A stretch of DNA of 64,000 nt from Isoetes taiwanensis (lineage: Eukaryota > Streptophyta > Lycopodiopsida > Isoetales > Isoetaceae), in assembly GCA_021234155.1 (NCBI GenBank), contig JAJEKV010000084.1:3725702-3789701 (forward strand), read 5' to 3'. The notes under the pieces were generated by a model that was not told the origin of the DNA, ran no database searches, and saw only the letters and a program-made list of their open reading frames with translations. Position numbers and translations under genes: made by a program. Of the stretch, positions 2,901 to 54,185 are shown piece after piece (positions within the stretch are counted from its first letter, which is position 1; each line of letters starts with the position of its first letter).

Positions 2901-3455
2901 TTTTATCATTTACGAAATTAATAAGGTTCTCCTTTGATATGATTGGTAAGTGCATATCTTTCTTCATTAGAGTTACTCCCTTGGTGTGTACTGTGCGGCT
3001 GTTGAGTCTTCAAAATGTTGGACCAGCTTCTGCTCTGCTGCTTCTTGACCCCTGGCCTCCCGCTCTCGTTCTGCCCTCTCCTCTTCTTGTTTCCTTCAGC
3101 CTCCTTGGCCTCTGGCTGTTTCGCCTTGTCGAGGGAGTCGAGTGGTCTGTTTGGTGCGCGTCATGTCGATCGGAGACTTGGTGTCTATCAGGATGATGAC
3201 TCTATCTAGCTTAAGGGTCTTGGTTCTAAGTCTAAGGCTTGGCCATTAATATTATCTAACATTATTACAGCTTAAATCTAATTAAGGATTATAATTCAAA
3301 CACAAACGATGCCCGCCCTCAGTGGTTGGCACGGGGGGGTTTGGGGGGGTTCAATCCTGTGGGTGGGAGGTTCAATTCCCGCTACTGTGGGAATTCTTTT
3401 AAGATGAGGTTTAAATAGATTAGAAAGCTAATCTAGCTAATTCCTAGGCTGAAAT

Positions 3456-3632
3456 TCGAATTACTAAGTTACTTTTCTAAATCTTTTTGACTTTTTAAAC
3501 TGTTTTCAGATCAGCAGGTCGAATTACTAAGTTACTTTTCTAAATCTTTTTGACTTTTTAAACTGTTTGTCGAATTACTAAGTTACTTTTCTAAATCTTT
3601 TTGACTTTTTAAACTGTTTTCAGATCAGCAGG
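3456..3632. repeat. Three-unit tandem repeat
   Basis: Three copies of one sequence starting TCGAATTACTAAGTTAC lie at 3456-3518 (63 bp), 3519-3569 (51 bp, lacking the last 12-13 bases) and 3570-3632 (63 bp). The full units end TTTTCAGATCAGCAGG, which resembles an intron acceptor. The pol reading starts directly after the third unit, so the repeat marks the broken 5' end of the pol fragment. Confidence 0.9.
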
Positions 3633-5180
3633 GGCCATTATTGATCGTGGAAAGCGGAAGGTGACCTTCCCAACACAGGTAAAGATCATTGAGATCACAG
3701 GCAAAGAAGTTGTTTCCATCATGCAGTGTATGTCTTCTAAACGGCTATTCAAGTGCATCAAGAGCGAGCAAGTAGCATACATCTTCAAGTGCATCAAGAG
3801 CGAGCAAGTAGCATACATCTTTAAGCTTGAGATTGAAGAGCCGGAGTCCGAAGAAAGCAAGGAAGACAAGGTGCTCAGTAAGTTGCCGAAGCAAATAGCT
3901 CAGTTGATCACGGAGTTCCACGATCTCTTTCCTGATGAGATCGAGCACCTTCCTCCTTACAGGGGAGTCGAGTATGAGATAGCACTCGAACCAGGAACAA
4001 AGCCGACAAGTAAGGCTCCATATAGAATGACGACGCAGGAGTTGACGGAGCTAAAGAAGCAATTGCAGGAGCTACTCGACCTAGGCTTCATTAGGCCTAG
4101 CGTCTCGCCATTTGGAGCGTCCATTCTTTTTGTCAAGAAGAAGGATGGATCGTTGAGGATGTGCATAGACTATAGGCAGTTGAACAAGCACACCATCAAG
4201 AACAAGTACGTGCTTCCCAGATCAGATGACTTGATGGATCAGCTCCAAGGAGCAAAGGTCTTCTCCAAAATCGACTTAAGGTCAGGTTATCACCAGATCA
4301 GGATAAAGGAAGAAGATATCCATAAGACCGCCTTCAGAACGCGGTATGGGCATTAAGAGTTCACGGTAATGCCTTTCGGCTTATCGAATGCCCCCGCGAC
4401 GTTCATGAGGCTCATGAACGACATCTTCAGGGAGTTCTTAGACACCTTTGTGATTGTATTCTTTGATGACATTTTGGTGTATAGCAGATCCCTTGAGGAG
4501 CACGTACAACACTTAAGAAGAGTGCTAGAGAAGTTGAAGAGGCACCAGTTGTACGCTAAGTTGTCGAAGTGCCACTTCGCAACAGAGAAGGTGGAATATC
4601 TTGGTCATGTGATCTCTGCAGAAGGAATTTCGACGGACCCTTCCAAGATTGAAGCCGTCATTCAGTGGCCGGCACCGAAGAATGTGCATGAGGTCAGAAG
4701 CTTTCTCGGCCTAGCAGGGTACTACAGGAAGTTCGTGAAGAACTTTGCTAAGATAGCGGCCCCGCTAACAGACTTGACGAGAGCAGGAAAGTGAAAGACT
4801 GGGTAGAGCATTGGCACAAGAAAGCCCAAGCAGGGTTTGAATTGTTGAAGGAAGCTTTAACAACCGCCCCAGTCCTAACCCTGCCGGACCCAGAGAAAGA
4901 TAAGCTTGTAGCAACGGATGCGACTAAGATAGCTACAGGTGCAGTGCTTATGCAGGAAGAGCGTGTAGTAGCGTATGATTCCAGGAAGATGAACGACGCC
5001 GAAACGCGCTACCCCACCCATGACCAGGAATTGCTTGCAGTTGTCAGGGCATTAAGAATTTGGAGGCATTACCTTTTGGGAAGGAAGTTCCAATTGGATA
5101 CGGATCACCAGAGCCTCCAGTATGTATTCACGCAACCACACCTCAACCTGAGGCAGAGAAGGTGGATGGAGTTCCTCGAG
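3633..5180 (+). pseudogene. Ty3/Gypsy pol, 5' part: protease end, reverse transcriptase, RNase H
   Basis: This is the 5' part of a chromovirus polyprotein that copies element RNA into DNA. It opens in the last residues of the protease; the rest of the protease and gag are absent. The reverse transcriptase shows [20 protein letters not shown], a [13 protein letters not shown] block, [12 protein letters not shown] and the catalytic FFDDILVYS. RNase H follows with VATDATKIATGAVL, a DQELLAV glutamate and DTDHQSL. It is dead: TAA replaces an expected Tyr codon at 4354-4356, and the frame shifts near 4790. A 12-residue in-frame duplication lies at 3748-3819. The frame stops at 5180, where a solo LTR has inserted, and resumes at 6906. 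Confidence 0.93.
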
Positions 5181-6900
5181 TGTGACGTCCCCTACTCGCA
5201 TACGGTGCACTCACCGTATACAAACAGGAGTTCATCCCCCATACCAGCTCCATACTAATACAGGGCCCTCCACATGACACTGCAACCGTGACGGGTTCCA
5301 GTGGGAAGAGTGAAGGGGTCATTGTACCCCGTCTCCCTCAGGGCCTACCTAGCTGCGGAAGCGTAAACATACATGTCAGTAGCACATACATCAACATCAT
5401 ATGACCATCACGAAGGATGGTCCTCCACATATCTGCATAGACAAAGATCAGCACATCACATAGGGAATCCTACCCAAGGCTCAGACTCAAGGGGATGACT
5501 GACAAGCTTGGGTCTCTAGAGGTCATTGCAGACAGAATTCATGGCAATGGATTTGGCTGGCATAAGAACATGGCATTGGGTTGTCCACTCCATCCGCCCC
5601 TCCTGTGCACACTTTGCAGAGTACGTTGAAAAGTGTTGGGACCCGATCAGAGCTCACCGGGATGCATAGCCAAAAGGGCTATTCCCGGGTTGCATCTCCC
5701 CGCCCGATGGGGCGGTAGGGATCACTCCCTCCAGAGATCTACATGCTGACTCAAGGTGACTAGAGGGCCACTGCCCGTATTCAACTTGAACTCAATGGAA
5801 GGTCATATTCACCACCTCACGAGTGTCGAGCCCATGCCTTGCCCACACGCAGTGGCAAGCCATTAGACCTAGTCACAATGATCCCCGGTAGCACTAACAC
5901 ACCATAGGGATCGCTCAAGAGTCGAAACACGAACCTCCTTATAAGCCGTCTGCCCCTTCACCCACAACCCGGTGTGGCTCTTGTGCACAAAGCCGCATCT
6001 ACAAAGTGTGCTAGAGAGGCTACTCTAGGAGCATCTACTACCAAGCTTGAAGTCTCTACCCCCTTCCCAATACAAGGAGTTCACGTGAGATACATCATCC
6101 ATATACATCCGCGTAGAAGAACTAAAGAACAAGATCTAATCTATATCATAGAGTTAGGTTCTTTAGTTAGAATCTGCTATCTAGAGTTCTAGAGGGTCTG
6201 CTATGGCCAATTTAAGAGGCTAAACCTACTGATTCGATGGTTTGAAATGGGGTTTAGACTACTAAATTGCCTAAATACCTGATCCTTGAGTTCCTCCTCC
6301 CCGACCAACTCGACCATCCCGGCAAATGCTCGAATCAAGGAAAACTAATGATGCAGTTCTCTCGCAGAAAGTTCAGGAGGCGGTTTTGGCTCTTGAGGCG
6401 GCCAAAACAGAGCTCTAAAACCCTAGAAACGAAAATGGGCAAGTTAGGGTTCTCCTACTTAAATAGACAAGGGGTGGCTAGGGTTTCCAATTATCCCCTT
6501 TAGGCATGTGGGATAATTGGGAAAAGGGCCCACTTGCCTTTAAGGGCTAGGTGGCCAAATGTGCCCACATGGAAATGTGTGCACCCAAATGTGCTCACAT
6601 GGAAATGTGTGCACATTAATGAATGTGTACATTGGAAAATGTGCACATTAATTGCACCTATGGGTATGGCCCACTTGGCATCAAGTGGCCACATGGAAAT
6701 GTGTGCCCACATTAATGTGTACATTGGAAAATGTGCACATTAATACTAATGCACATTCTTAGCAAGTTGCCCCCTAGGGGCTACCCACTTGGCTACACGT
6801 TGGCGCATTACCGTCGGTCGAGGTGGCGGCGTCGCTGGCGTGGCGTGGGCGTGTACAATATACGCCCCGGGAGCCGTATCTTTGTCTTTGGAACGTCACA
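5181..6900 (-). mobile_element. Solo LTR in reverse orientation, with 5-bp target duplication
   Basis: It begins TGTGACGTCCCC and ends GGAACGTCACA, the reversed ends of the LTR at 9934-11613. The flanks are TCGAG (5176-5180) and TCGAG (6901-6905), a perfect 5-bp target duplication. It sits inside the RNase H coding sequence; LTR plus duplication (1,725 bp) is a multiple of three, so the host frame is the same on both sides. No internal element sequence remains, so LTR-LTR recombination after insertion is inferred. Confidence 0.95.
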
Positions 6901-6905
6901 TCGAG

Positions 6906-9104
6906 GAGTACGACTTTGATATAGTCTACAAGCCAGGGAAGCTGAATGTGGTAGCGGATGCGCTTTCAAGGCATCCCCTGACAACTGTGCATTGCAATGC
7001 AATTTCGACAGTCTCCAGTGAATTTGGTAAGAAGATTGAAGAGTCCTTGCCAATGGATGTGGATTTCAAGGAAGTATGGGCAAGCCTCCCTAGGGAGGCA
7101 AGAACGGATAAAGAACGGGAAGCCTTTAAACATTATAAGAAGGAAGGCAACCTGTTATATCATAAGAACAAGTTGTGCATACCCGAATCATCAGGGGTAA
7201 GGAAATTGATCCTCCATGACACGCACAACAGCCCAATAGCTGGCCATGCGGGATTCATGAAAACATATTTCAAAGTCTTGCAGCCTATTATTGGCCGTGA
7301 ATGAAGAAGCAAGTAGCTCGCTACATCAAGGAATGTCACTATGTCGCCAGACGGCGCGTAACGACCTTCAATCCTGTGGGCGTTAGAGCCATTAGCGGTG
7401 CCAAACGCTAAGTGGGAGGTCATCAGCATGGATTTCATCACAGGGCTTCCAAGGACAGTAAGAGGGAAAGATGCCTTGATGGTAGTAGTCGACAAGTTGT
7501 CGAAGATGGCACATTTCGTGCCTTGCAGGACAACAGATACAGCTATGGATACAGCGAAGCTCTTCACCAAAGAGATCTTCAGACTTCATGCATTAGAGGT
7601 AATTTGAGATCTCCTTTTGTCCCCATAAGAATCCTCCAATAGAATGAGTACTCTACATCAAACTGCAATTAATGCAGCATTAACAACTTCATTGCTGTCG
7701 TTTTTTCCCTATAACTTTTGATCTACTCATGAAAATGCTGCGGCGTTTGTTGCATTAGATGCAGAATGAAAAGATCTTTCAAGTGATATATGGTTATGAT
7801 GTATTTCAATACAAGCCATATGTGTTAACCTTAAAAAATATGGTTTTTTTCTCTTTTCTTATATATTTACATCCCAAAAGATATAACAATGGGTTGTCAT
7901 TAGAAAGATCTTGAGGAGACGAATCCATTGCCACAAATAGTGTTCGAATCGGAGTTTTTGATCAAAAGTTATAGTAGAAAAATGACACCGCAAAAGTTAG
8001 TTAGAACCGCATTAATTATCACCGCCACATAATAATCGAATAAAATACACTGGAGCTCTTCTCTTATTGGACAGTTTAAAAAGCTGATGTGGCTTTTTAA
8101 GCATCCCTTAATGGGACAAAATGAGATCTCAAATTACCTCTAATGGTATCTCCGATAGGGATCCGAAGTTTATGAGTGCCTTTTGGCAAGACCTCTTTAA
8201 TTCCATTCGCACGGGTTATCCATGAGCACGGGCGTATCATCCTCGACGGATGGCCAAAACGGAGCGGACCAACAGATTTTGGAAGACATGCTATGAAACT
8301 ATGTCTGGAATAAGCAAGGTATGTGGGAGGAATTTATTCACTTGGTGGAGTTTGCATACAATAGCACCAAGCGTGAATCATCCCAAATGTCGCCGCTTAT
8401 GATCAATTACAGCCTATCAATGCCTAACTCCGCACACTTGGCACAATCCCGCGTCAAAAGTAGAAGTTTCAGCCAGATGTTGGCCGATATGCAGCAGCTA
8501 GTGGAAGAAGTTCGAGGGTATCTTCTAGCGGCAAGGAATCGTCGGAGAAGAGCATCGCCGGCAAGCATCGAACAAATGAGAGTTCGGGTTGGCGACAACG
8601 GTGGCTCAAGATCAAAGTGAAGCGGCGAAGCCCGCGATCGAAATTGTAAGAAGCTTGCTCCAAGGTGGGCTGGACCTTTCAAAATAGTCCGTAGTAGGTA
8701 GCCAATCCTACAAGCTAGAATTGCCGCCACACCTAAAGATTCATAAGGTCTTCCACGTGAGTTTATTGAAGAAGCACACTCCAAATCCAGACGAGGTCTT
8801 GGACACTCCAACGTTGTTGGAAATGACGGAGGAACAGCTGGAAATAGTTCCAGAGTTAATTCTTGATAAAGCCTTCAAGAAAACAAGGAGGTCAGAGTTC
8901 CTCCAGTATTTGGTCAAGTGGAAACACTTGCCAGTGGAAGACGCAACGTGGGTACTTAAGAAAGATCTAGTAAAGAAGTACCCACAATTCATGGAGCAAT
9001 GGGACGGCAAGGTCATCTCCGAAGAAATCGGCTCAGGCATGTCGGTTTGTGTAGATCAATTCTATGTGTGGTTAAGGTTAATCTACGCATGCAACCTATG
9101 TTAG
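6906..9104 (+). pseudogene. Ty3/Gypsy pol, 3' part: RNase H end, integrase, chromodomain
   Basis: The RNase H tail YDFDIVYKPGKLNVVADALS opens this part. The integrase zinc-binding region follows (KLILHDTHNSPIAGHAGF) but is stopped near 7304. The catalytic core begins at about 7398 (MDFITGLP, first Asp) and is split by a MITE at 7596. It resumes with SDRDPKF (second Asp) and a degraded TERTNR region near 8260. From about 8690 comes the C-terminal FKIV/SYKLELPPHLKIHKVFHV region, then at about 8860-9000 a chromodomain (PELILDKAF, YLVKWKHLP, DATWV) that would direct integration to modified histone tails. At least three frameshifts make it non-functional. Confidence 0.92.
7596..8140. mobile_element. 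MITE, 545 bp, TA target site
   Basis: The terminal inverted repeats start GAGGTAATTTGAGATCTC and extend imperfectly through TTTTGTCCC. The flanks are TA (7594-7595) and TA (8141-8142). The element lies between the first and second catalytic Asp of the integrase, whose similarity resumes directly after it. It encodes nothing. TA duplication and TIRs fit a non-autonomous Tc1/mariner-type element. The element at 45117-45656 has the same size, target and TTTGAGAT core near its end. Confidence 0.88.
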
Positions 9105-9933
9105 GTATGGATTGCATGCATTGTAACCGATGATGAGACCGCTACGGTGATCTCTAGGGCGTGGTGTAATGTCGATGTAGGCATAACCGCGTTTCCGCTT
9201 GGACGAGTGGAAGGTAGATTAGAAAGTCTACTTCTGTCCCAAGGAAGTAGACGACCTCGAGAGAAAGGAGGTCATTGAGAGATGCATTGATAGGAAAGGC
9301 ACCTTTAGCCCCATATATGCTTTGATAGGAGGAATCTATCCTTCACGCCCCCCACGCGGGAAGGATATCCTCCACGCTGGGCAACTAGAGGTGTAGGCAT
9401 GAGAGGCATATAGGCATAATAGGACGCTGTCTCCATGGCCATTATGGAAGATTCATCCTCTTCCTACGCCGGGAGATTAGCCATGCATCCATGTAGATAG
9501 GTGGGGTGGTCACCATATAACCAAAATTTTACTAATAATTAAATGGTACTAACATAGTGTTGACCTGCAGGCCAATAGAGCGCTCCAGAGGGCAAGGAGG
9601 TCGAGCTACGAAGACTTGCAACACAAATTTTGTTGGAATGTGTTGCAAGGAATGAACAGTACCTCGGACGTTAATTTTAATTTTGATAAACTTAATTGTC
9701 GTGATAAGTGAATTATCGAGTAACCTGTTGTAATGATGTTATGAATTGATAAGTTATTCCATAATATAAGGGCGTAATAATGTTCTAAAAATATTACCTT
9801 AAGGTAATCTTAATAAATATGTAAGTATTATAGTAGTATATATCGTATGTATCAGGTTGATTGCAGGTTAGGAAGATCCCAAGGTGGGGAGACCCACGAT
9901 GCTGCGGACAGCATCATTTTAAGGTGGGGAGAA
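9105..9933 (+). other. Retroelement 3' untranslated region with polypurine tract
   Basis: No coding frame follows the chromodomain. Just before the LTR, AAGGTGGGGAGAA (9921-9933) is the polypurine tract that primes plus-strand synthesis. A second copy of AAGGTGGGGAGA lies at 9881-9892. The tract touches the LTR start at 9934, which shows that this LTR is the 3' LTR of the pol copy on its left. Confidence 0.75.
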
Positions 9934-11613
9934 TGTGACGTTCCAGTACAATATACGGTCCCAGGACGTATACTGTACTGCCTCGTCACGCGTACACGCC
10001 ACCCCGACTGACGTGTACGCCAAAGTATAGCCAGGCGGGTAGCCCCTAGGGGGCAACTTGCAGGGAATGTGCAATTCCTAATGTGCACATTTAACTATGT
10101 GCACATTAACCTAGGTGCACATTTTCCAATATAGACACCTTATGCCAAGTGGGCCACATTTTCCAATGTGCACATTAATGTGCACACATTTCCATGTGAG
10201 CACATTTGGGTGCACACATTTCCATGTGGGCACATTTGGCCACCTAGCCATTAAAGGCAAGTGGGCCCATTACCAATTATCCCACATGCCTAAAGGGGAT
10301 AATTGGAAACCCTAGCCAACCCCTTGTCTATTTAGGAAGGGAAACCCTAACTTGCCCATTTTCGTTTCTAGGGTTTTAGAGCTCTGTTTTGGCTGCCCCA
10401 AGGGTCAAAACCGCTTCCCAGACTCTGTCTGAGAGAATTGCACCCTTAGTTTCCCTTGATTCGAGCATTTCAGCAGGATGGTCGAACTCAGGTCAGGAGG
10501 AGGAACCCAAGGATCAGGTATTTAGCCAATTAAATAGTCTAAACCCTACTTTCGTCATGGAATCAGTAGGTTTAGCCTATTAAATTGCCCATAGTAGCCT
10601 TCTAGATCTCTAGATAGCAAACTCTAACTAAAGAACCTAACTCTATGATATAGATTAGATCTAGTTCTTTAGTTCTTCTATGATGTATATGGATGATGTA
10701 TCCCTATGAACTCCTTGTATTGGGAAGGGGGGTAGAGGCCTAAAGCTTGGTAGTAGATGCTCCTAGATTAGCCACTCTAGCACACTATAGATTCGTCCTG
10801 TGTACAAGAACCACACCTGGTTGTGGGTGAAGGGGGCCAGACTAGCTAAGAATGAGGTTCGTGTTCTGACTCTTGAACGATCCCTCTGGTGTGTAAAGTC
10901 TACCGGGGATCCTTGTGACTAGGTCTAATGGCTTGCCACTGAGTGTGGGCAAGGCATGGGCTCGACACCCGTGAAGTGGTGCTTATGACTTTCCATTGGG
11001 TTCAGTCGAACAAGGGCAGTAGCCCTCTAGTCACCTTGAGTCAGCATGTAGATCTCTGGAGGGAGTGATCCCTACCTGCCCCATCGGGGCTGGGGAGATG
11101 TAACCCAGTAGACTTAGCCCCTTTGGCTAGGCACCCGGCGGGCTACAGTCAGGTCCCCACACTTTTCAACCTACTCTGCAAAGTGTGCACAGGAGGGGCG
11201 GATGGAGTGGACTACCCATTGCCATGTTCTTATGCCAGCCAAATCCATTGCCATGAATTCTGTCTGCAATGAACTCTGGAGACCCAAGCTTGTCAGTCCA
11301 TCCCTGTGTCTGAGCCTTGGGTAGGATTCCCCTATGTGCATTGTGCTGATCATTGTCTATTGCAGATGTGATGTACCACCCTAAGCGGTGGATATACGTG
11401 TGTTGCTCTTATATACTGACATGTATGTTTACGCTTCCGCAGCTAGGTAGGCCCTGAGGGAGATGGGGTAAAATGACCCCTTCACTCTTCCCACTGGAAC
11501 TGCCACGCGCTTGCGTCATGTGGAGGGCCCCAGACGGGGCGTGGAGCTGGTATGGGGGAAGAACTCCTGTTTGTATACGGTGTGTGCACCGTATGCGAGT
11601 AGGGGACGTCACA
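9934..11613 (+). mobile_element. Full LTR of the chromovirus, 1,680 bp
   Basis: It begins TGTGACGTTCC and ends GGGGACGTCACA, so it has TG...CA ends inside an inverted terminal repeat. It has a polypurine tract on its left and a primer binding site on its right, so it serves as 3' LTR for the pol copy and as 5' LTR for the gag copy. At 10068-10245 it carries at least six copies of a GTGCACA-type palindromic motif. The solo LTR at 5181-6900 is the reversed relative, about 40 bp longer. Confidence 0.93.
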
Positions 11614-11614
11614 G

Positions 11615-11626
11615 TGGTATCAGAGC
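11615..11626 (+). promoter_or_regulatory. Primer binding site for initiator tRNA-Met
   Basis: TGGTATCAGAGC lies one base after the LTR end. It is the standard primer binding site, complementary to the 3' end of plant initiator tRNA-Met, used by many plant Ty3/Gypsy and Ty1/Copia elements. Confidence 0.92.
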
Positions 11627-11817
11627 AATGTTCTTGGAGACCAAGAGCAAAGCACTGGCCATGTTCCCAGTAGTACTAACTTGATAGGATCCTTAAACCT
11701 CGAAAAATGGGAAAATTTTTTCTCATTTTTTTTAGTTTTGCTAAGCTAGTAACAGCTAAAATGAATGAAAACATAAAAAGATTAAGAATTGGTGAGCCAA
11801 CCTTCAAAAGTAGGGAA

Positions 11818-12095
11818 TCTCACACGTCCTTCCAGACAGAAATGAGATTTTCATTTTCAGTCAAAGGCGAACGTGAGACATTCAAATTTTAGACACACCA
11901 AAAAGTTGTAAATTACAGTAAAATAGCTTGATAATTCTAAATTAGAGCTAAGAATCAGTAGAATTAGCAAATTACATGTTTAACAAGTGTTAAACTTAAT
12001 AGTGGACACCACCATGTCTCACCACCATGTCTCACACGTCGCGCCAGGACAGGAAATGAGTTTTTCATTTTTGGGCTGGGCGCAACGTGTGAGAC
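11818..12095 (+). repeat. Two leader hairpins
   Basis: Unit one (11818-11880) opens TCTCACACGTCC and closes GAACGTGAGACA. Unit two (12028-12095) opens TGTCTCACACGTCGCGCC and closes GGCGCAACGTGTGAGAC. Each can fold into a stem of roughly 12-17 bp. Similar units recur reversed at 2510-2777, so they belong to the element family. Their place between primer site and gag suggests an RNA role such as dimerisation or packaging, but that is inference. Confidence 0.65.
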
Positions 12096-12170
12096 CATGC
12101 TCAATTAAGTGTTTTAGATGTTTTAAGCACCCCAAAAAGGTAGTTTAAAAGTTGACCTAAAATTGACCCC

Positions 12171-12178
12171 TATAAATA
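12171..12178 (+). promoter_or_regulatory. TATA box upstream of the H3-tail gag ORF
   Basis: TATAAATA lies 101 bp upstream of the ATG at 12279. Transcription starting about 30 bp downstream would give a short leader in which that ATG is the first start codon. Whether it is used is unknown; the LTR would normally supply the promoter. Confidence 0.4.
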
Positions 12179-12278
12179 GGCCTAGATCCCTCCCATTTCA
12201 AGCTCTTCCCCTTAGAAATTGCTCGGTATCCGCAAGGCGATCTTCTGGCGCTTAGCTCGGATCGACGAACCATCAAAT

Positions 12279-13073
12279 ATGGCCCGCACAAAACAGACTG
12301 CTAGGAAGCCTCGCCGAAGCGAATCCTCCAGCGCCAGCGGTCCTGGCCTCTTTCAGAGAGTCCTTCAAGAATGCCTTTTCCAAGAAGGCGAATCTTCTTC
12401 GAGCGAAGATGCAGGATCGGATCGGAGCGACCATACAGAGATCATAGAGGACGACCGGCCAGACATCATGCATCAAATTCTCGAGGAGATCGCAGAGGAG
12501 GAGGGAAGGGAGCAGGAGCACCCGAAACAGTGGGCAGTCAACAGCCGAGGAGCAACTCGCATCGAGACCCACCCAAGGGAGGAGCAAGGGAGAGAAGAGC
12601 AGCGGCAGCCGACGCTTAGCCCCGCAGAAGAAGCAGATCTTGCACGCTTCATTAGCAGGTACGAAGACAGGGAGCGCCGCCGAGAGGGGAGGACAAAGAG
12701 ACGGGAGGACAACCCAACCACAGCCGGTGAGCCGAAGAAGAAGAAGGCAAAAGGCATCAAGGCGGGCAACAGAAAGGTTGTGAAGGTTGGTAAGCGAGGA
12801 ACGGGGATCAACATCAACGAACCATCAGGCGAAGAGACCCCGCCCTCTACCGACGACTCAGACGAAGACTACGTGCCCGACACTGGGGGGGCAAGTTCTT
12901 CAAAACCCCCGGTCGTGGAGGAGGAAGTCCCCCAGCAGGTGGCACCTGAGCAGGATCAGCCCGGACAGCAGCCGAAGCCCCCACCGTTCCCGACGTGGGA
13001 TAGGGTCAAAGCCCTACGGCCCGAGGGGTTCACTTATAGTAAGGGGGGTATGCCATGTGCGTGCATAGGGTGA
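12279..13073 (+). CDS. Gag-like protein with a histone H3 N-terminus
   Basis: The first ATG of this frame is at 12279, with A at -3 and G at +4; an upstream extension of the frame opens only at a TTG. The product begins MARTKQTARKPRR. After Met removal, residues 1-9 are identical to histone H3 1-9, including R2, K4, R8 and K9; residue 10 is Pro instead of Ser. A Ser- and acid-rich stretch, a basic stretch with a KKKKAK nuclear-localisation-like run (around residue 155) and a Pro/Gln-rich tail follow. It matches no host gene I know. Its place after LTR, PBS and leader makes it the N-terminal part of gag. The frame seems to run out around 13040 into foreign sequence, so the C-terminus is not native. 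Confidence 0.75.
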   Translation: MARTKQTARKPRRSESSSASGPGLFQRVLQECLFQEGESSSSEDAGSDRSDHTEIIEDDRPDIMHQILEEIAEEEGREQEHPKQWAVNSRGATRIETHPREEQGREEQRQPTLSPAEEADLARFISRYEDRERRREGRTKRREDNPTTAGEPKKKKAKGIKAGNRKVVKVGKRGTGININEPSGEETPPSTDDSDEDYVPDTGGASSSKPPVVEEEVPQQVAPEQDQPGQQPKPPPFPTWDRVKALRPEGFTYSKGGMPCACIG

Positions 13074-13281
13074 TCAAAAACACCCCCGTATACGATTTCT
13101 TGAAAGGCAAATTCGACCCCTTCCGTACAAAGTTTACCCCAAGTAGTGGCAAAAAACCCCCCTACCTCTTACGTATACGTATGGAAATGGGTCGAAAAAA
13201 CCCCCCTACAAGTCACTCAGGCACATTGTATGGCACTTACAGTGAATCCCCCTTGCCCTACGGCCACAACGGGAGGCATAT

Positions 13282-13500
13282 GTGATAGACCCCGTCAAGG
13301 TCTATCAGAAGAGGATCAGGGAGCACAACGCTTACATGGAGAAGTGGGAGGCATACAATGCCTATTACCAGGAGAACAGGGTGAGAACGATTGAAGGCGG
13401 ACACCCGACAAGAAGCCAGACCCTGAAGCCGCCGCCACCGAAGCCCAAGCCTCCCAGAGCACCAGGAAAGAAGCGGGCTGGCAGGAAGAAGTTGGAGAAC
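13282..13500 (+). pseudogene. Gag fragment, 3' part
   Basis: A second coding-like stretch in another frame begins VYQKRIREHNAYMEKW and ends in a Pro/Lys-rich run (KPPPPKPKPPRAPGKK). Composition and position suggest a continuation of gag. It is parted from the H3-tail ORF by about 200 bp holding three near-repeats of AAAAAACCCCCCTAC. It runs directly into an LTR tail at 13501, so the rest of gag and all of pol were deleted from this copy. Confidence 0.5.
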
Positions 13501-13554
13501 AGAACTCTTGTTTGTATACGGTGTGTGCACCGTATGCGAGTAGGGGACGTCACA
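13501..13554 (+). mobile_element. LTR tail (last 54 bp)
   Basis: This is nearly identical to 11560-11613, ending GAGTAGGGGACGTCACA. It marks the right end of the element complex. The sequence resumes in a host-like FCP1 domain read on the minus strand, so the complex is inserted in that gene. No matching 5-bp duplication of the right flank (GCATC) is seen beside 9934, so the original left boundary must lie elsewhere. Confidence 0.88.
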
Positions 13555-40060: not shown

Positions 40061-40441
40061 TTTCTCCGCATTTAAGGAATATTTCTAGTGCTTATTTCTA
40101 GAGTGCCAATCGATGGCCTAATGTGGTCATGATGCACCGCTGGTTCAATATTTTGGTCAAAAGGGGTGCAGTTATAATAAATTATTGGGAGAACTAGCGG
40201 ATCATAAAGTTTATGTTGATATCCTTCTGTTGATTGACTGGTGAAATGAGACATATGAAGCATTTCTTAAGTGGCAGATTTATATTAGAATTTTGTTATC
40301 TCCTTGGTTGAATGATTGATTGGTGGAATGTGATATATGAGGCACCTATTAAGTGGTATGTTTGCATTTTTATATCTCTTTGTTTGAAGGACGTATGGAA
40401 ATAAAATAAATGAGGCATTTTTTTTGGTCTCAAACCTGATA

Positions 40442-42399
40442 ATGGCTTTCTACTCGATCCCAGTTACCGTCTGGAGGGAAATGCAGGGATTCTCCGACAC
40501 GGAACTACTAGAGCGGCTGCTCCAAAAAGTTGTTGACAAGGAGTTCAGCCTCGAAGAAATGTCAAAGGAATTTTATAAGTAAGTTCTGTGATACAAGCTT
40601 TGCTCTTTGGCTGTTGTTGTCCTAGTAGCATCGGTGTAGACTGTGTATTCTGGAATACTCATGCCTTCTTGTAGACGAGCAATGTGTATTTCGGAATATA
40701 CTTTGGTTTGTTCGAGCAGAAAAAGCTTTCAAATCTTAGAATTTGTGTCTTAGAACAGATACTCATTTACTCTATAAATAAAAATAGTATTTCAGAATAC
40801 AAAGTGATTTCACAGTAGCAGCATATTTCTTTTCAAGATAGCAACTCCATGGATCGGTTTTGTATTCCAGAATACAAATTGCTATACTTCGAACTGTTTT
40901 CTTTGTGTCTTGTTTTGTTTCATTTACTTCCTAACACAGTGTTTCCTTAATGTCTTGCAGCCAGAAAAACGTCATAACATGTCAAACATGTTTGATGGAG
41001 CAGCTAAACGTTGAAACTTGGGAAAGGTGCAAGGAGCTCTACCCAGTAGCCACCTCCGACGAGCGCATTGTACAATATGCACCAAATTTTGAGGGCTGGG
41101 TAAGTACTCTCGATTCCTTTCCTCTTCACTTGCGATGTCTTAACAGTTGTAGTTTTGTTTTTCCTTACAGAGCAAGAAAAATAACAAAGACTTTCCCGAG
41201 GGCTTCATGCACTTGGTTAGAACTGCACGGGAAGAGAGGTCGTTGACTGAAAGAAGGACTATTGATGCAGAACCATCCGACTATGAAAGATTTTGCATGT
41301 TTGATCAAAACAACCTATTTTCGATCATTCATGGCGATTGCACGAACCTAATCGGAACGGTCAAGCCGCAGGACTTTACTTTGGTTCTTGCAAACCTTCC
41401 CTACGGGTTTAAGCTTAAAGATAGCCGATACGACAATCAGCCCTTCAAATTTTCCGAGTTCAATGCGTTCATTGAGGGCATCAAGCAGATCACAACGGCC
41501 AAGCATTGGCGTCTAGTTGTGTTCTATTCCAGCATGCAGGCAGGCTTGGTAGAATCAGCTTTTAAAAACCACTTCGGTTCTCAAGTTCAGGCAGGATATG
41601 AAAACCTGGTCTGGTAAGTCTTATTCCAGAATACGGTTACTAACCTCTTTAATTACGTCTCGTATTCCAGAATAGGATTACTTTGTTTCTAGTTTTCAAA
41701 TTGTTTTCTTGTTTTTGCTAACATCACTTCTAATATTTCACTAGGTACAAAACGAACATCAATTATCATGGTGGAGGACCAAGGTTACTCAGCAAGATGG
41801 AGTACCTTCATGTTGCTTACTGGAGTTTTGACGGGAAGAGAACCATGGAGCATTTTAACACTGCCGCCTGCCAAAATTTTTCAAACGTCCTAGAGTTTCC
41901 AGCGGCCTTACAGAAATTGCAGGACCCAAGTGCACAAGGCAGGATTGTAAATCACTATCAGAAACCACAAAAGCTCATCAACCATCTCCTGGACATGTTC
42001 TCGCGTCCAGGAGATTGGGTGCTTGATGCTTTTTCTGGTTCTAGTACTACCATTGCATGTGCACTTAAGAAGGGCCACAACTGTGTAGCCGTGGATATTG
42101 ATAAGGAGGCTGTGAATTTTGTGAGGATGAGACTGGTTGCCTTACCTACTTTACCAGATGAACAAGAGTTAGGAGCGAAGTCTTCATTTGATTATGCTAA
42201 GCTAGCGTCCTCAGAGATACAGCCTCCTTCCTCGAGCTCACTAGACGACGAGGCCACCTTTGCAGAGCTTAAAGAAGTAGCTTTAGCTACCATTCCAGAG
42301 GACAAGGCAGAGGCAAAAGGTAAGTCTCCAGCAAAGAGCAGACGACAGAGAAAGAAAGTGCTGAGACCAGCAAAAAAAAAGATGAGGACTATGATGTAG
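40442..42399 (+). CDS. Beta-class DNA N6-adenine/N4-cytosine methyltransferase, intact split gene
   Basis: The exons 40442-40578, 40961-41099, 41171-41613 and 41745-42399 join with GT-AG introns into one frame of 457 residues. N-terminal CQTC (about residues 54-57) is followed by motif IV ANLPYGF (about 166-172; the family norm is D/N-PP-Y). The C-terminal half has HYQKPQKLINHLLDMF, then motif I LDAFSGSSTT (about 333-342) and VAVDIDKEAV, binding S-adenosylmethionine. Motif IV before motif I is the beta-class order of PF01555, the family of CcrM and many bacterial restriction methylases. A basic tail (KSRRQRKK, KKK) may be a nuclear signal. Introns 1 and 3 hold six palindromes of the GTATTCCAGAATAC type. 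A decayed copy lies at 50673-52571. NLPYG instead of NPPY leaves activity open. Confidence 0.85.
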
Positions 42400-42708
42400 A
42401 TCTTTGACTACTTTATGCTAAAATCATTATTATTTACTACAATGGATTGCCAATATTGATGTATAGAATTTTATTATAAAAATAATTTTTCCTTCCTATT
42501 CTGGTGCTTTTTTTTGTCTTAATTTCAGTCTTTTCAAGTTGATGCCTAAATTTTGCCTTTTTTATAATTTTCTTTTCATAAGTACAAAGTTGTCGCCTAA
42601 TGATGGCCCTAAATGATGGGAAAAAAACACCGAACCTCTACAAATTCTCAACAACTTTCAAAAAAGACTAATTTTAGAAAAGTGGTACTTTTTAAAAGGG
42701 AATCTACG

Positions 42709-42736
42709 AAACGGGAGTGCTGCAACACTCCCGTTT
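42709..42736. terminator. Perfect 11-bp hairpin 3' of the methyltransferase gene
   Basis: AAACGGGAGTG and CACTCCCGTTT flank the 6-base loop CTGCAA. It is preserved exactly in the second copy (52916-52943). Its position between methyltransferase and kinase-like frames suggests an RNA 3' structure or a target-site remnant. Calling it a terminator is inference. Confidence 0.5.
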
Positions 42737-42953
42737 AATTTGCAACAGTGTTGTTAGACATGCTCTATCATACGCTGTATTGGTCGTACAACTGGATTGG
42801 AAAGAACAGGGTTGATATTCCCTTATTGGAATGGGGGTTCTTGTGCATCTCTTTTTGTGCATCATGGAGATAATGAGTTTGCAAGGCTAGGGTATAAGCC
42901 TAGTGGTCGTTTTTAAGCGGCTTACTTAAGCTTAATAAGAGCACCATTTACAC

Positions 42954-43538
42954 ATGGACTTGCACCCGGGCAATGTCTTGCTTCATTTTGACTTTGGGAA
43001 AGACAAAGCATGCACGGACCCTCAGGCTATTTATATTGGTATCTGTGATTGGGGAGAAGAAAGGCTAATAGGTGAGCCAGAGCGGTGGGCATACAAAGGC
43101 ATGGATGATGCTGGCAAAAAGGCCATTGAGAATGAAAGACTTGCCTATCCATACATGCATGATGATTTGTATTGGGGTTCCAAAAGAGATAGAACTAAGA
43201 TGATGGCTGCAAGGGTCGACTTCGACCTCTTAGGGGCAACCTACTTTATCTATTACCTTGCTGATTTTGCACGCAAGCATTCTTTCTTCGAGGCTATGGG
43301 TACTACTGAACAAAGCCAGAGGTTTCGAAACATGTGCAATTATTTGAAGCACTGTGTCGAATCCCCAATACGAGACAAGGCACGCAAGTTTGATCTGAAC
43401 CAGCTACTGAACACCATGCGGAGCACTTGGAATTGCTCTCCAACACATTGCACAAGACCCCAAATGGAATCAGATTGGATTGCCCAAGTTAGGTTAGGTG
43501 CAGACGATGCTGACCAAGCTGGACCAAGTCACGCTTAG
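42954..43538 (+). CDS. Protein-kinase C-lobe-like protein, copy 1
   Basis: The 194-residue frame opens MDLHPGNVLLHFDFG, the catalytic loop of a kinase (HxD....N, with the His encoded just upstream of the ATG). GICDWGEE follows at the DFG position, as DWG. The later helices (ARVDFDLLGATYFIYYLADF, FRNMCNYLKHCVESPIRDKA) fit a C-lobe. There is no N-lobe, so either upstream exons are missing or this is a truncated pseudokinase. It lies 555 bp after the methyltransferase gene. The copy at 53162-53746 differs in one residue (D/N), far less than the methyltransferase copies do, which suggests constraint or recent conversion. Confidence 0.6.
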   Translation: MDLHPGNVLLHFDFGKDKACTDPQAIYIGICDWGEERLIGEPERWAYKGMDDAGKKAIENERLAYPYMHDDLYWGSKRDRTKMMAARVDFDLLGATYFIYYLADFARKHSFFEAMGTTEQSQRFRNMCNYLKHCVESPIRDKARKFDLNQLLNTMRSTWNCSPTHCTRPQMESDWIAQVRLGADDADQAGPSHA

Positions 43539-43769
43539 CGTGCCATTTATGAGCTCTCTTGTATGCTATAAAAAAAATTTATTGATTGAATAATTGCTTT
43601 AGATACATTTAATAAAATATCTTTGGCATGTTATGTATTTATTTTTGTTGCACTTGATTTCTTTTATAATTTATAAGTCATATTGAGTTGTTTTTTATTT
43701 TGCGCAGTTAACATAAAGCTTATCCGCAAGAAATTGAACAAACAACTTACTTAGTGCCAAACAAAAAGT

Positions 43770-45117
43770 ATGTCTCAACAACCGAGTTTGTCTCATCAGC
43801 AAGATACTATTTCTCGTCAACCGAGAGAAGGGGCTGATGAAACTGGGCAAGGGGGCAACTTCTCCTTCCCGTTCTCTTTGAGAAACTCCAGATGGCTTTG
43901 TATTCCCTTCTCTACCTACATTATCGGAGGTTAAGGCACAACAGCTACAGAGAGCAGAGGAACATGCTAGAACAAATGAAGCGCGTGCATCTGTTGAGGC
44001 TGAGGGCAATGGCAGAAGTGGCCAAGAAAGAAGGTGTCACAATTACAGAGGTGCATGGAGTTGCATGTACATGGGCCCAGGTTGTTGCCCGCATGGAGCG
44101 GATTATGAGGATGTGGAGGCTAATTTAGACACCAAATGGTTTGACGCCGACTGGCCAAGCAGGAGAGCAGGCAAATATAAAGCATATGACTGCAAGATCC
44201 CTGAAGTCCGAGCTAAAGCTTTGGAGAGGTGGGTCCAAGTGAAAGGAACGATGATAAAAAACCATGAATTCAACAAGACGTTTGCCAAGCAAGTTTATTA
44301 TAAGATTGTGAAAGGGGAGCCTGTAAATTATGCTAGCAAAAAATGGTAACAAGGAAGCGGTAGTGGTAGCAGCAAGAGAGTGAAGCAGATGAACGATTCT
44401 GAAAGTGCAACTTTTAGAAGTGGCGGGGGTTGCGGCAGCAGGTGCAATGGCAGAAGAGGTAGATCTGAAGGCTCAGCGAGAAAATGAAAGAAGTCGAAAT
44501 CTTACTTTGTCAGAGGAGAACTTGCGCTTAAAAGACCGTGCAAATGCTCACGACAAGATGGCTGCAGAATTAGCAGACACGAAGAATCAACTTGCAGCTT
44601 TGGGTAGGGAAAATACGGTGTTGAGAGTAGACAATGAGCATATGCGTGGTTTGACCAGAGCCTTAGATTCTGATCCCCTTAGAGTCTTGAAGGAGCAAGG
44701 TATTGCATACCTCCCTTCCGAGTACCTATATGAGAGCCATTGGGAGGATGTAAAGAATGAGAACTACAGATATGTCAAAGTTGTGGGGACAATTTGACCC
44801 AAGTTGGTTGGTATGACTTGGGATGTGGACATCATCTGCATTTGAGGTGTTTGTTGGATTGGATGATGGGCAGTAGGTTCTGTCCAGCGAAGGATGGATA
44901 TATTATACCAGAGTGGCAGTATGCCGTGCTTAACATGCAATCATGCTTGCCCTCCTTGCCACCTCTAATTGCTCGTAGGAGGGATGGAATAACTCATGTG
45001 TTCCAAAGTCAACGTGAGATGGACCTTTGGAGGGGGGTAGAAGAACCGCGTGAAGGTGAGGATGTACCAGATATTAACCTGTACCTGCCTCCCGCTCCTG
45101 GGCCACAGGGTCATTAG
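43770..45117 (+). pseudogene. Coiled-coil RING-finger-like gene
   Basis: It starts at ATG 43770 with MSQQPSLSHQQDTISRQP, then shifts frame into SEVKAQQLQRAEEHARTNEA and YKAYDCKIPEVRAKALERWV. From 44405 comes a long coiled coil (QRENERSRNLTLSEENLRLK, LAALGRENTVLRVDNEHMRG). At 44794-45117 the segment YDLGCGHHLHLRCLLDWM followed by FCP is the second half of a RING-H2 finger; the first Cys pair is not visible. RING fingers recruit E2 enzymes for ubiquitination. A MITE begins at the stop codon. Its first 200 bp are also in the second segmental copy (53978-54185), where the gene is cut off. Exons or frameshifts are not resolved. Confidence 0.5.
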
Positions 45118-48174: not shown

Positions 48175-50370
48175 CTAAGTCCTCAGACGAATCTCCTGTA
48201 TTACTTGCACCTGGCCTTTCTGTATCAGACTCCTCTTCTCTGTATCTTCGCTGTTGTCTGACTCGTCCGAGAACATGTTCTCATCTAAATCATCTCCGGT
48301 GTCGACAAAATGGGTATGTTGAATGTCCTCATCAACATGGTTGGCGGCATTTACTGCAAGCAGCTCGTCCTCACTGTCTTCGAAGCTGTCCTCTTCCACT
48401 TCGGAACCTGCATCCATGAAAGGAAACTGTAACTTATCGACTACGGCTGCACCACTGTTGCGATTTAAAAGCCGCCAGTTTGAGAAGTTATATATAAGTT
48501 TGTCAGCCTTCTTATGCAGCAGGTGATTTCGTGTGATACTGTGTATGTACTTATAGGCACTCCAATTCCTCTCACTTGCACTATTGGAGGATACCAAGGA
48601 GAGGATAGTCATCGCAAGGGCCTGTAATATATCAGTAACTTGTCCGTGGGCTTGCCACCATGTATAAGATTCCATATTTGGCTTCTTATGATTCTCAAGT
48701 GCGTCGTAAAGCTCTTCATCTGCCCACCTTCCACTCTGGTATTCGGTTAACTCGGTAATGAAAAGCTTGTAGTCCGAGCTGTTAGGATAGTACAGTTTGG
48801 CAACCGTCTTTAACGAACCCATAACTTCTTTATATGTATGCTGGTCCATATCGTGGTTGTGTAGGTTTAAGGCATATGCGGCACCATGAAGGTCATTGTA
48901 CGACTTCTTTCATCATACAATGAAGTCCCTGAGCAATGCTGCGCGCTTGGCATTGTCAAAGGATGCGTTGGACCCGTCACGTTCTAGGAACGATTGAATC
49001 GAGTGCCAACACCTCCAGACCTTGCTAGTACTTGCCGTCGAAGAATCAAGGGTTTTGATGGAATGACAAACATGTTGCATGCACCTCACAACATTCTTTA
49101 TGCCTTTATTCCAAAATGTCTCCCGCCCAAGCATTTCTCGAAGGGCAACGGCTTGCTGCCGGTGTTTTGATGCAATTTTGCCCTTCTGCCTCCTCTCCTA
49201 TTCAAAGAAGTCTGTATAGTTGGTCAAGATAATCAGGTGACGATACCTAAGCACTCTTTCAAGACAAATGTAATTGGAACCAAACCGAGTCTGGCCAGGA
49301 TTCATGAGTGCTAGGGCCTTTTGACGCAATGACTTGTATATGGCGTAAATTGCCGGCTTCTTTATGATGAATTTCACAAGACAACGGGCTTTTTGACTGG
49401 GATCTTTGAACCAAGTGTGTTGTGAAAACCAGTCCTTGAGCAACAAGTTTAGGCAATGGCATTGGCAGCTGGTGGCGTGCAATCCTAGAAATTCAGACTC
49501 CCAATTCACCGCTAACTTACAATTAGACGCGTTATCCATTACAACCTGAAATATTCTCTTCGGTCCAAAACTCTCTATCACAGCCTTTGTTTTCTGAAAA
49601 ATCCAATCTTCTGTCACCTGGTCAGTTTTAGTTTCCACGATCTTCAAAAATACTTCGCCCCCTGGATAGACGATCATGAAGTTTTTAAGGTGGTCCTTGT
49701 TTACATTGCTCCAACCATCAGTCACTAGTGAAGCCAGCCTGGCTTCAATAATACGACACAACTTCATCTTCACCCTTCCGACCATTTTTCCGTGTATTTC
49801 ATCGACCATTTTGTTATTGGCATGCTTGTATGAAGGCAACCTGAAAGCCGACCCCGCTTTGGCAACTTCTTGGAAGGCTTCTTTCATTGCTTTTTGTTCT
49901 AAGACATGTGGAGACAATCCAGCATATAAAAATGCCTCTACAACCTTCAATTGCGTCTTCTTCAGTTGCTCTGATGTTAAACACTGATCAACCCTCTGTT
50001 GCTGAGTCTGTCTTTTCACTATTTCAATTGTCTCTGCCATTCTTTTTTCGCCCGTACTTAACCCTCCTATTGACCCTAGTCCACCCTCTGATTGGTACAT
50101 TGGCACTGCAGGAGGGTTGGTGTAATTGATCTCTTCTACTTGGCACGGTGTCGATCCTTGACTATCCCTTTGCTGTGTTTTTCTGCTGATGTTCTTTTTT
50201 CGACCCAACACTTCAATTGCATCTTGTCGTTTGTCAGCAGATGCCATACAAGTTTGCACCCCAATTTTAGAGTCCCATAAAATATGAGCTCGAATTCTTG
50301 TCGCAGATCCATTTATTGACGTGTACCCACAAAACACACATTGCCACTCATTCTGACCAAACTCCTTCAT
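48175..50370 (-). pseudogene. hAT transposase, nearly full length with nonsense codons
   Basis: From the right: a BED-type zinc finger (CVFCGY, later IRAHIL and QTC), a Gln-rich linker, then DUF659-type sequence with LVTDGWSN and VMDNASNCKLA holding the DDE acids. The left end has SNSASERNWSAYKYIHSITR and FSNWRLLNRN, the hAT dimerisation domain. All parts lie in one frame, interrupted by TAG at 49198-49200 and two TGA codons at about 48910-48915, so few changes killed it. An acidic tail of about 80 residues follows the dimerisation domain. Flanking terminal repeats were not found; a 26-bp near-direct repeat lies at 50362-50415. Confidence 0.9.
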
Positions 50371-50672
50371 AAATCCCCACTCAGGACCTCTCCTTCACAA
50401 ATCCCCACTCAGGACGCAGTTATAATAAATTATTGGGAGAACTAGCGGATCATAAAGTTTATGTTGATATCCTTCTGTTGATTGACTGGTGAAATGAGAC
50501 ATATGAAGCATTTCTTAAGTGGCAGATTTATATTGGAATTTTGTTATCTCCATTGATTGGTGGAATGTGATATATGAGGCACCTATTAAGTGGTATGTTT
50601 GCATTTTTATATCCCTTTGTTTGAAGGACGTATGGAAATAATGAGGCATTTTTTTTGGTCCCAAACCGGATA

Positions 50673-52571
50673 ATGGCTTTCTACTCGATCCCAGTTACCG
50701 TCTGGAGGGAAATGCAGGGATTCTCCGACACGGAACTACTAGAGCGGCTGCTTCAAAAAGTTGTTGACAAGGAGTTCAGCCTCGAAGAAATGTCAAAGGA
50801 ATTTTATAAGTAAGTTCTGTGATACAAGCTTTGCTCTTTGGCTGTTGTTGTCCTAGTTACTCATGCCTTCTTGTAGACGAGCAATGTGTATTTCGGAATA
50901 TACTTTGGTTTGTTCGAGCAGAAAAAGCTTTCAAATCTTAGAATTTGTGTCTTAGAACAGATACTCATTTACTCTATAAATAAAAATAGTATTCCAGAAT
51001 ACAAAGTGATTTCACAGTAGCAGCCATATTTCTTTTCAAGATAGCAACTCCATGGATCGGTTTTGTATTCCAGAATACAAATTGCTATACTTCGAACTGT
51101 TTTCTTTGTGTCTTGTTTTGTTTCATTTACTTCCTAACACAGTGTTTCCTTAATGTCTTGCATCCAGAAAAACGTCATAACATGTGAAACATGTTTGATG
51201 GAGCAGCTAAACATTGAAACTTGGGAAAGGTGCAAGGAGCTCTACCCAGTAGCCACCTCCGACGAGCGCATTGTACAATATGCACCAAATTTTGAGGGCT
51301 GGGTAAGTACTCTCGATTCCTTTCCTCTTCACTTGCGATGCCTTAACAGTTGCAGTTTTGTTTTTCCTTACAGAGCAAGAAAAAGAACAAAGACTTTCCC
51401 GAGGGCTTCATGCACTTGGTTAGAACTGCACGGGAAGAGAGGTCGTTGACTGAAAGAAGGACTATTGATGCAGAACCATCCGACTATGAAAGATTTTGTA
51501 TGTTTGATCAAAACAACCTATTTTCGATCATTCATGGCGATTGCATGAACCTAATCGGAACGGTTAAGCCGCAGGACTTTACTTTGGTTCTTGCAAACCT
51601 TCCCTACGGGTTTAAGCTTAAAGATAGCCGATACGACAATCAGCCCTTCAAATTTTCCGAGTTCAATGCGTTCATTGAGGGCATCAAGCAGATCACAACG
51701 GCCAAGCATTGGCGTCTAGTTGTGTTCTATTCCAAAGATGCAAAAGTGCTTGGTAGAATCAGCTTTTAAAACCACTTCGGTTCTCAAGTTCAGGCAGGAT
51801 ATGAAAACCTGGTCTGGTAAGTCTTATTCCAGAATACGGTTACTAACCTCTTTAATTACGTCTCGTATTCCAGAATAGAATTACTTTGTTTCTAGTTTTC
51901 AAATTGTTTTCTTGTTTTTGCTAACATCACTTCTAATATTTCACTAGGTACAAAACGAACATCAATTATCATGGTGGAGGACCAAGGTTACTCAGCAAGA
52001 TGGAGTACCTTCATGTTGCTTACCGGAGTTTTGACGGAAGAGAACCATGGAGCATTTCAACACCGCTTTGCGCCAAAATTTTTCAAACGTCCTAGAGTTT
52101 CCAGCCTTACGTAAATTGCGGGACCCAAGTGCACAAGGCAGGATTGTAAATCACTATCAGAAACCACAAAAGCTCATCAACCATCTCCTAGACATGTTCT
52201 CGTGTCCAGGAGATTGGGTGCTTGATGCTTTTTCTGGTTCTAGTACTACCATTGCATGTGCACTTAAGAAGGGCCACAACTGTGTAGCCGTGGATATTGA
52301 TAAGGAGGCTGTGAATTTTGTGAGGATGAGACTGGTTGCCTTACCTACTTTACCAGATGAAAATCAAGAGTTAGGGGCGAAGTCTTCATTTGATTATGCT
52401 AAGTCAAGGCCCCCTCGTGAGATACAGCCTCCTTTCTCGAGCTCACTAGACGACGAGGCCACCTTTGCAGAGCTTAAAGAAGTAGCTTTAGCTACCATTC
52501 CAGAGGACAAGGCAGAGGCAAAAGGTAAGTCTCCAGCAAAGAGCGCATTTACGAGAAAAGAAAGTCTTTGA
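50673..52571 (+). pseudogene. Methyltransferase, decayed copy 2
   Basis: Exon 1 (50673-50809) is intact. The acceptor of intron 1 reads TTGCAT where copy 1 has TTGCAG, so normal splicing should fail; the next AG would shift the frame. Exon 3 is altered near 51735 and ends early (FYSKDAKVLGRISF, then stop). Exon 4 lost a base near 52037 and several near 52070-52110. The motif I region (LDAFSGSSTT) and motif IV (ANLPYGF) remain readable. The C-terminal basic tail is shifted. It cannot make the full enzyme. Confidence 0.9.
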
Positions 52572-52915
52572 GACCAACAAAAAAAAAGATGAGGACTATG
52601 ATGTAGATCTTTGACTACTTTATGCTAAAATCATTATTATTTACTACAATGGATTGCCAATATTGATGTATAGAATTTTATTTTAAAAATAATTTTTCCT
52701 TCCTATTCTGGTGCTTTTTTTTGTCTTAATTTCAGTCTTTTCAAGTTGATGCCTAAATTTTGCCTTTTTTATAATTTTCTTTTCATAAGTACAAAGTTGT
52801 CGCCTAATGATGGCCCTAAATGATGGGAAAAAAACACCGAACCTCTACAAATTCTCAACAACTTTCAAAAAAGACTAATTTTAGAAAAGTGGTACTTTTT
52901 AAAAGGGAATCTACG

Positions 52916-52943
52916 AAACGGGAGTGCTGCAACACTCCCGTTT
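52916..52943. terminator. 11-bp hairpin, second copy
   Basis: It has the same arms and loop as 42709-42736 and no change, although nearby sequence has point differences. Function is inferred only. Confidence 0.45.
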
Positions 52944-53161
52944 AATTTGCAACAGTATTGTTAGACATGCTCTATCATACGCTGTATTGGTCGTACAACT
53001 GGATTGGAAAGAACAGGGTTGATATTCCCTTATTGGAATGGGGGTTCTTGTGCATCTCTTTTTGTGCATCATGGAGATAATGAGTTTGCGAGGCTAGGGT
53101 ATAAGCCTAGTGGTCGTTTTTAAGCGGCTTACTTAAACTTAATAAAGAGCACCATTTACAC

Positions 53162-53746: not shown

Positions 53747-54185
53747 CGTGCCATTTATGAGCTCTCTTGTATGCTATAAAAAAAATTTATTGATTGAATA
53801 ATTGCTTTAGATACATTTAATAAAATATCTTTGGCATGTTATGTATTTATTTTTGTTGCACTTGATTTCTTTTATAATTTATAAGTCATATTGAGTTGTT
53901 TTTTATTTTGCGCAGTTAACATAAAGCTTATCCGCAAGAAATTGAACAAACAACTTACTTAGTGCCAAACAAAAAGTATGTCTCAACAACCGAGTTTGTC
54001 TCATCAGCAAGATACTATTTCTCGTCAACCGAGAGAAGGGGCTGATGAAACTGGGCAAGGGGGCAACGTCTCCTTCCCATCCTCTTTGAGAAACTCCAGA
54101 TGGCTTTGTATTCCCTTCTCTACCTACATTATCGGAGGTTAAGGCACAACAGCTACAGAGAGCAGAGGAACATGCTAGAACAAAT

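Follow-up and report, generated by a model that had tools for sequence, protein, structure and literature searches.

Short histone mimics are a known device by which selfish elements copy the N-terminal motif of H3, influenza NS1 being an example; in contrast to such short tail motifs, the element described here carries the H3 tail together with a whole histone fold. The closest precedent that we found, in the available text of the reports concerned, is the capture of H3 by fungal hAT DNA transposons. Those of Pyrenophora tritici-repentis carry H3L, with insertions in the tail and a divergent fold (PMC3538342), and a hAT-captured H3 occurs in Pseudocercospora and relatives (PMC6710886); one of these fungal cases comprises 26 near-identical H3L copies and the other RIP-inactivated copies (PMC3538342, PMC6710886). 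Isoetes taiwanensis resembles these fungi in that an H3-like coding sequence has been multiplied by a transposable element. However, going by what these sources describe, the carrier differs: it is an LTR retrotransposon with long terminal repeats and a reverse transcriptase (RT) instead of a hAT element with H3 between inverted repeats and a hAT transposase, it occurs in several deep lineages, and its exact tail and its fold are under purifying selection. With plant Ty3/gypsy chromoviruses (REXdb clades, PMC6317226; chromodomain types, PMC3350952) this element has in common LTRs, a primer site, gag, protease, RT, RNase H and integrase, followed by a putative chromodomain, but it possesses two extra ORFs before gag, and the available text of both sources reports no histone ORF. 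An extra ORF beside gag-pol also characterizes LTR retrotransposons with additional ORFs, although no histone ORF is named among them in the accessible part of the source (PMC12786077). A search of the literature, mostly outside subscription journals, returned no paper recognised as describing an LTR retrotransposon that encodes a histone. While element capture of H3 is already known from the fungal hAT transposons, what appears unusual here, as far as these partial sources allow a comparison, is the long-term preservation of the chromatin signalling tail.

The locus lies in a stretch of 64,000 nucleotides of I. taiwanensis DNA (hereafter the window), in which a first-pass annotation had described a retrotransposon gag starting with the H3 tail (Table 1). 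The ATG at 12279 starts MARTKQTARKPRRSESS, also read as MARTKQTARKPRR, and the protein begins with M-ARTKQTARK-PRR; no in-frame Met is present in the 20 codons read upstream, and the start context is strong (A at -3, G at +4). That annotation had rightly recognised the exact tail in a strong start context, with nine matching residues; S10 is replaced. The LTR, primer site and leader that it had placed ahead of the tail can all be read upstream of the ATG. The primer site presumably corresponds to the initiator tRNA-Met. The polypurine tract also precedes the 3' LTR in three other copies, with one base different in one of them. Since this LTR is preceded by integrase, a chromodomain region and a polypurine tract belonging to an older element that a reversed LTR splits (3623-9933), and is followed by the primer site, it is both the end of the older element and the start of the ORF1 element. 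The window copy itself is a wreck, with an insertion in it and the histone fold lost. This damage accidentally created its 264-aa open frame, the stop codon of which sits inside the unrelated insertion, and homologue searches with this broken frame gave no matches because the histone fold is missing from it. Elsewhere in the window, a 3.8 kb direct repeat (40168-43977 and 50416-54185, 96.8% identical) flanks ORFs with DUF659 and hAT dimerisation domains (48175-50394, minus strand); these repeats are perhaps the terminal repeats of another large element.

Table 1. Features read around the H3 tail in the window (positions are those of the window)
Feature	Position	Strand	Remark
Second, degraded ORF1, middle deleted	2947-3164	-	MTRTKQTTRLPRQ at 3164-3102; fold-end remnant 3047-2947
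Older element, protease/RT part	3623-5179	+	RT 4219-4575
Reversed LTR inserted into pol of the older element	5181-6901	-	84% identical to 9933-11613
Older element, RNase H/integrase/chromodomain part	6903-9053	+	chromodomain region 8790-9053
Polypurine tract AAGGTGGGGAGAA preceding the LTR	9921-9933	+	read in the window sequence
LTR, TGTGACG...GACGTCACA	9934-11613	+	
Primer-binding site TGGTATCAGAGC	11615-11626	+	same place in four other copies
Leader	11627-12278	+	palindromic repeat at 12029-12095
ORF1 start: Met followed by the exact H3 tail ARTKQTARK	12279-12308	+	
ORF1 linker region	12309-13037	+	homologous to L002 ORF1 up to residue ~253-259
Unrelated insertion, ~0.2 kb	13038-13254		limits approximate; holds stop codon 13071-13073
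ORF1 homology, resumed	13255-13500	+	start approximate; through residue 343, histone fold beyond missing
Fragment (54 bp) of the LTR 3' end	13501-13554	+	

Relatives of this copy display the order LTR, primer site, leader, ORF1 (H3), ORF2, gag, protease, RT, integrase and weak chromodomain. Pfam domains RVP_2, RVT_1, H2C2 and rve follow one another in L032, which is the Ty3/gypsy order. The copies L007 and L009 have an LTR at each end, TGGTATCAGAGC after the LTR and target-site duplications of 5 bp (AAACC and CTCTT); the two LTRs are 95.8% identical over 1673 columns in L009, and 99.3% over 611 and 94.7% over 831 columns in L007. The ORF1 element is a Ty3/gypsy LTR retrotransposon. As regards its location in such an element and its sharing across the family, the first reading of the tail stands; the gag identity does not, as gag is a separate ORF with a CX2CX4HX4C motif, two ORFs downstream of ORF1, whose zinc knuckle reaches only 16.4 bits with zf-CCHC_2 in Pfam (cut-off 27). 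ORF2, of about 500 aa, lies between ORF1 and gag (L034:2-1399, L029:1-1326) and is ~28-43% conserved across lineages; no Pfam family reaches its cut-off with ORF2, and the AlphaFold model is poor (mean pLDDT 34). The putative chromodomain after integrase gives Pfam Chromo E-values of 9.7e-5 and 0.0019 (22.7 and 18.5 bits, both below the cut-off of 25.1), and of the three residues of the aromatic cage, tryptophan alone is present. This incomplete cage weakens the earlier proposal that the element's own chromodomain binds the tail.

Several repeats accompany ORF1. The leader and the stretch separating ORF1 from ORF2 contain recurring palindromic repeats of ~67 bp (at 2705-2781 in the window besides the leader site of Table 1, at 2879-2955 and 3078-3149 in L007, and upstream of ORF1 in L071), and in the C63 lineage the corresponding place is occupied by several hairpin repeats that differ in sequence; they are possibly an RNA signal. 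Furthermore, three exact-tail sites stand ~5.8 kb apart on one strand of G000 C217:120970-132589, a spacing that suggests a tandem array of ORF1-bearing units, and two ORF1 copies are found in direct order ~1.9 kb apart in L047 (C935:1351000-1355000).

In relatives where it is open, ORF1 encodes ~390-430 aa, with the exact H3 tail followed by a linker of ~300 aa and then an H3 fold. Pfam Histone (PF00125) matches the 422-aa ORF1 of L002 over residues 303-418 (E 2.2e-27) and that of L007 (E 2.6e-25), above the cut-off in both. H3 chains of the PDB match ORF1 residues 293-421 (E 1.5e-28), H3 topping the matches (best 60 of 174); AlphaFold models ORF1 poorly (mean pLDDT 51). The tail is thus the N-terminus of a whole H3-like histone according to Pfam and PDB matches, and not a case of mimicry limited to the tail, as had been proposed. 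The alternative then mentioned, capture of the 5' end of a host H3 gene, is nearer to the truth, except that the captured part comprises both tail and fold. Two other identities were discarded: ORF1 has no gag domain or CCHC knuckle and its full-length relatives end in the H3 fold, and an ordinary H3 gene would have ~136 aa, STGGKAPRK and no insert, in place of the 388-428 aa of the fold-open copies. Canonical host H3 is found separately, at L061, L062 and L065.

Examination of 27 fold sequences indicates that R69, R72, R83, C110, H113, K115, R116, T118, D123 and L126 are retained in 25-27 of them, and that other positions have changed in most: R63 to P (26), K79 to N (24), K122 to Q (23), Y99 to K (23) and R129 to H (21). 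Given the roles of these residues in nucleosomes, the kept ones favour a protein able to pair with H4 and DNA while presenting an altered surface. With the other five positions altered in most folds, entry into nucleosomes is not assured.

A degenerate nucleotide pattern for MARTKQTARK identifies 1051 exact starts (516+535) in the 1.66 Gb genome and the reversed pattern, used as control, none, so that occurrence of the tail by chance was rejected. The same genome has a complete plastid-type rbcL beside accD, whose best PDB match is a Rubisco large subunit along its entire length, as befits a land plant. Lysine occupies position 4 in 1051 of the 1060 sites at which all other tail positions match, a figure that measures single departures only. 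A six-frame genome search yielded at least 165 ORF1 matches (145 of 6184 candidates scored), and ~45 of ~155 rows inspected by eye begin elsewhere than residue 1. Sharing among family copies is confirmed: of the loci L001-L028, selected for good matches (8 from the search output and 20 picked among good matches), 25 have the exact tail. L003, L010 and L023 are the exceptions in this set; further copies that lack an intact tail include L046 and L048.

The first-pass annotation had also suggested a dN/dS test of the tail, and this gave strong purifying selection. The 22 ORF1s of the 28 loci that are open over >390 codons, and were chosen for being open, were compared by Nei-Gojobori averages, 21 of them without L023, whose tail reads through shifted frames. 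In these 21, dN/dS is 0.010 for tail codons 2-10, 0.40 for codons 11-20, 0.25 for codons 73-150, 0.058 for the fold (331-422) and 0.158 for the whole ORF; with the frameshifted L023 added (n=22), the tail and whole-ORF values become 0.076 and 0.165. Furthermore, when 412 nine-codon windows are ranked by pN, the five lowest are that of the tail and four in the fold. At the level of codon comparison, it is shown that tail and fold are under strong purifying selection and the linker is not. Position 10 departs from H3: among 51 exact-tail rows from fetched loci (one site entered twice), S occurs only in three ordinary H3, the remaining rows having P (35), Y (5), V (3), F (2), T, R or A (1 each). 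Counted as 50 distinct exact tails, S10 is present in the three canonical H3 and absent from all 47 others. Genome-wide, a TCN serine codon follows K9 in 19 of the 1051 sites, and S10 sites may be more numerous as AGY codons fall outside this count.

Depth was assessed on 20 exact-tail sites with differing codons, taken from the first 100 listed. Besides the three ordinary H3 (L061, L062, L065), this sample contains 17 sites belonging to several lineages with very different linkers. All 17 have some downstream match to H3-fold queries (E <= 1e-3); several are badly broken and the match of L063 is partial. Lineage B (L058, C63) has an open ORF1 of 388 aa that is 36% identical to that of family A, with pS 0.82, and the tail residues are identical between the two. 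Its RT protein is 95% identical to that of family A over 88 aa (pS 0.85), the corresponding values being 90% for integrase, 34-52% for gag-protease and 28% for ORF2. An LTR end, ORF2, gag-protease, RT and integrase surround its ORF1, and its primer site ACAATGGTATCGAGC resembles that of family A. The region fetched for the L067 lineage contains an ORF2 relative beside ORF1, together with a primer site and an LTR end. The ORF1 arrangement is thereby shown, from these alignments, to recur in lineages with saturated silent sites. In a fold tree that omits L028, P0016, L051 and L056, lineages A, B58, L054, L066 and L068 are joined with a support of 99; L067 is set apart with weak support, so that more than one capture is possible.

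Using full ORF1 as query, 17 public proteins match the fold (E <= 0.001, 263 candidates); three of the 12 hits read start with an H3-like tail and nine start otherwise. P0005 (212 members), P0007 (60) and P0013 (21) combine an H3-like tail start, an insert and an H3 fold. Proteins of the P0005/P0007 type resemble ORF1 by a near-exact H3 start (MARTKQTARKNTGG, MACTKQTARKDTGG), an insert of ~250 aa, the H3 fold and the replacement of S10. The P0005 fold is, in contrast, much closer to ordinary H3 (84%). The viral contigs searched contain no relative of P0005 or ORF1.

It is very nearly certain that ORF1 is a selected, element-borne H3. Our main reading, to which as a whole we give a probability of roughly 0.8 on sequence grounds, is as follows. 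A Ty3/gypsy lineage captured an H3-type gene and carries it in first position, ahead of ORF2, gag and pol. Once made and freed of its Met, the protein would use the conserved fold to pair with H4 of the host and would enter nucleosomes on host or element DNA, where its tail could engage the writers and readers of H3K4 and H3K9; loss of S10 would remove the phosphorylation site by which K9me readers are ejected. The likely benefit would be that silencing is blunted or redirected, or that integration or packaging is steered. The element probably uses its own histone to deal with host chromatin, because selection kept the signalling tail while much of the protein changed.

How ORF1 would act is less clear-cut than its identity. 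A nucleosomal H3 variant is the most likely form and has, in our estimate, an even chance of being correct. A soluble decoy comes next, though we consider it unlikely: ORF1 would stay outside nucleosomes and titrate silencing enzymes or readers as a histone mimic, with a free ARTKQTARK on a flexible linker. The exact tail despite linkers that differ between lineages, the ~300 aa between tail and fold and the loss of R63, K79 and K122 would all suit such a decoy, but it needs no fold, whereas that of ORF1 is under constraint almost equal to the tail's (dN/dS 0.058) and keeps most H3-H3 and DNA-contact positions. More doubtful, and third in our ranking, is that the captured histone was the centromeric variant CENH3 and that ORF1 steers the element to centromeric chromatin or seeds it. 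The fold indeed has ALKEIRHFQ, LLIP and RVTLMR.D in common with a manually entered Arabidopsis CENH3 sequence; loop 1, however, has the length of H3 and not that of the longer CENH3 loop, the fold is 57% identical to host H3 and 52% to that CENH3 sequence, and the tree gives ORF1 no firm place with CENH3.

The many broken copies, that of the window included, might point to a host H3 that was transduced and copied with the element as a functionless passenger, but the low dN/dS of tail (0.010) and fold (0.058), and a tail unchanged across lineages with saturated silent sites, make this highly improbable. Finally, ORF1 follows LTR, primer site and leader, as gag would, and might be a gag polyprotein in which a short mimic of the H3 tail has evolved; with full-length relatives ending in an H3 fold and gag encoded downstream in an ORF of its own, this reading can practically be dismissed.

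Returning to the nucleosomal H3 variant, we tentatively suggest, as a possibility somewhat short of even, that a deep clade of plant LTR elements encodes a nucleosome component with an invariant K4/K9 tail, S10 removed and a fast-changing linker, serving to outlast H3K9 silencing or to redirect it, and that the P0005-type proteins are a second independent instance. The ~1000 tail-bearing copies contaminate any count of H3 genes in the I. taiwanensis genome. The removal of S10 in the sampled copies constitutes a natural experiment on the methyl/phospho switch. Plants silence retrotransposons largely through H3K9 methylation, and an element keeping a full H3 with a modifiable tail would give direct molecular access to this silencing conflict. 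It becomes testable whether a selfish element inserts its own histone into chromatin, absorbs silencing enzymes or marks its own DNA.
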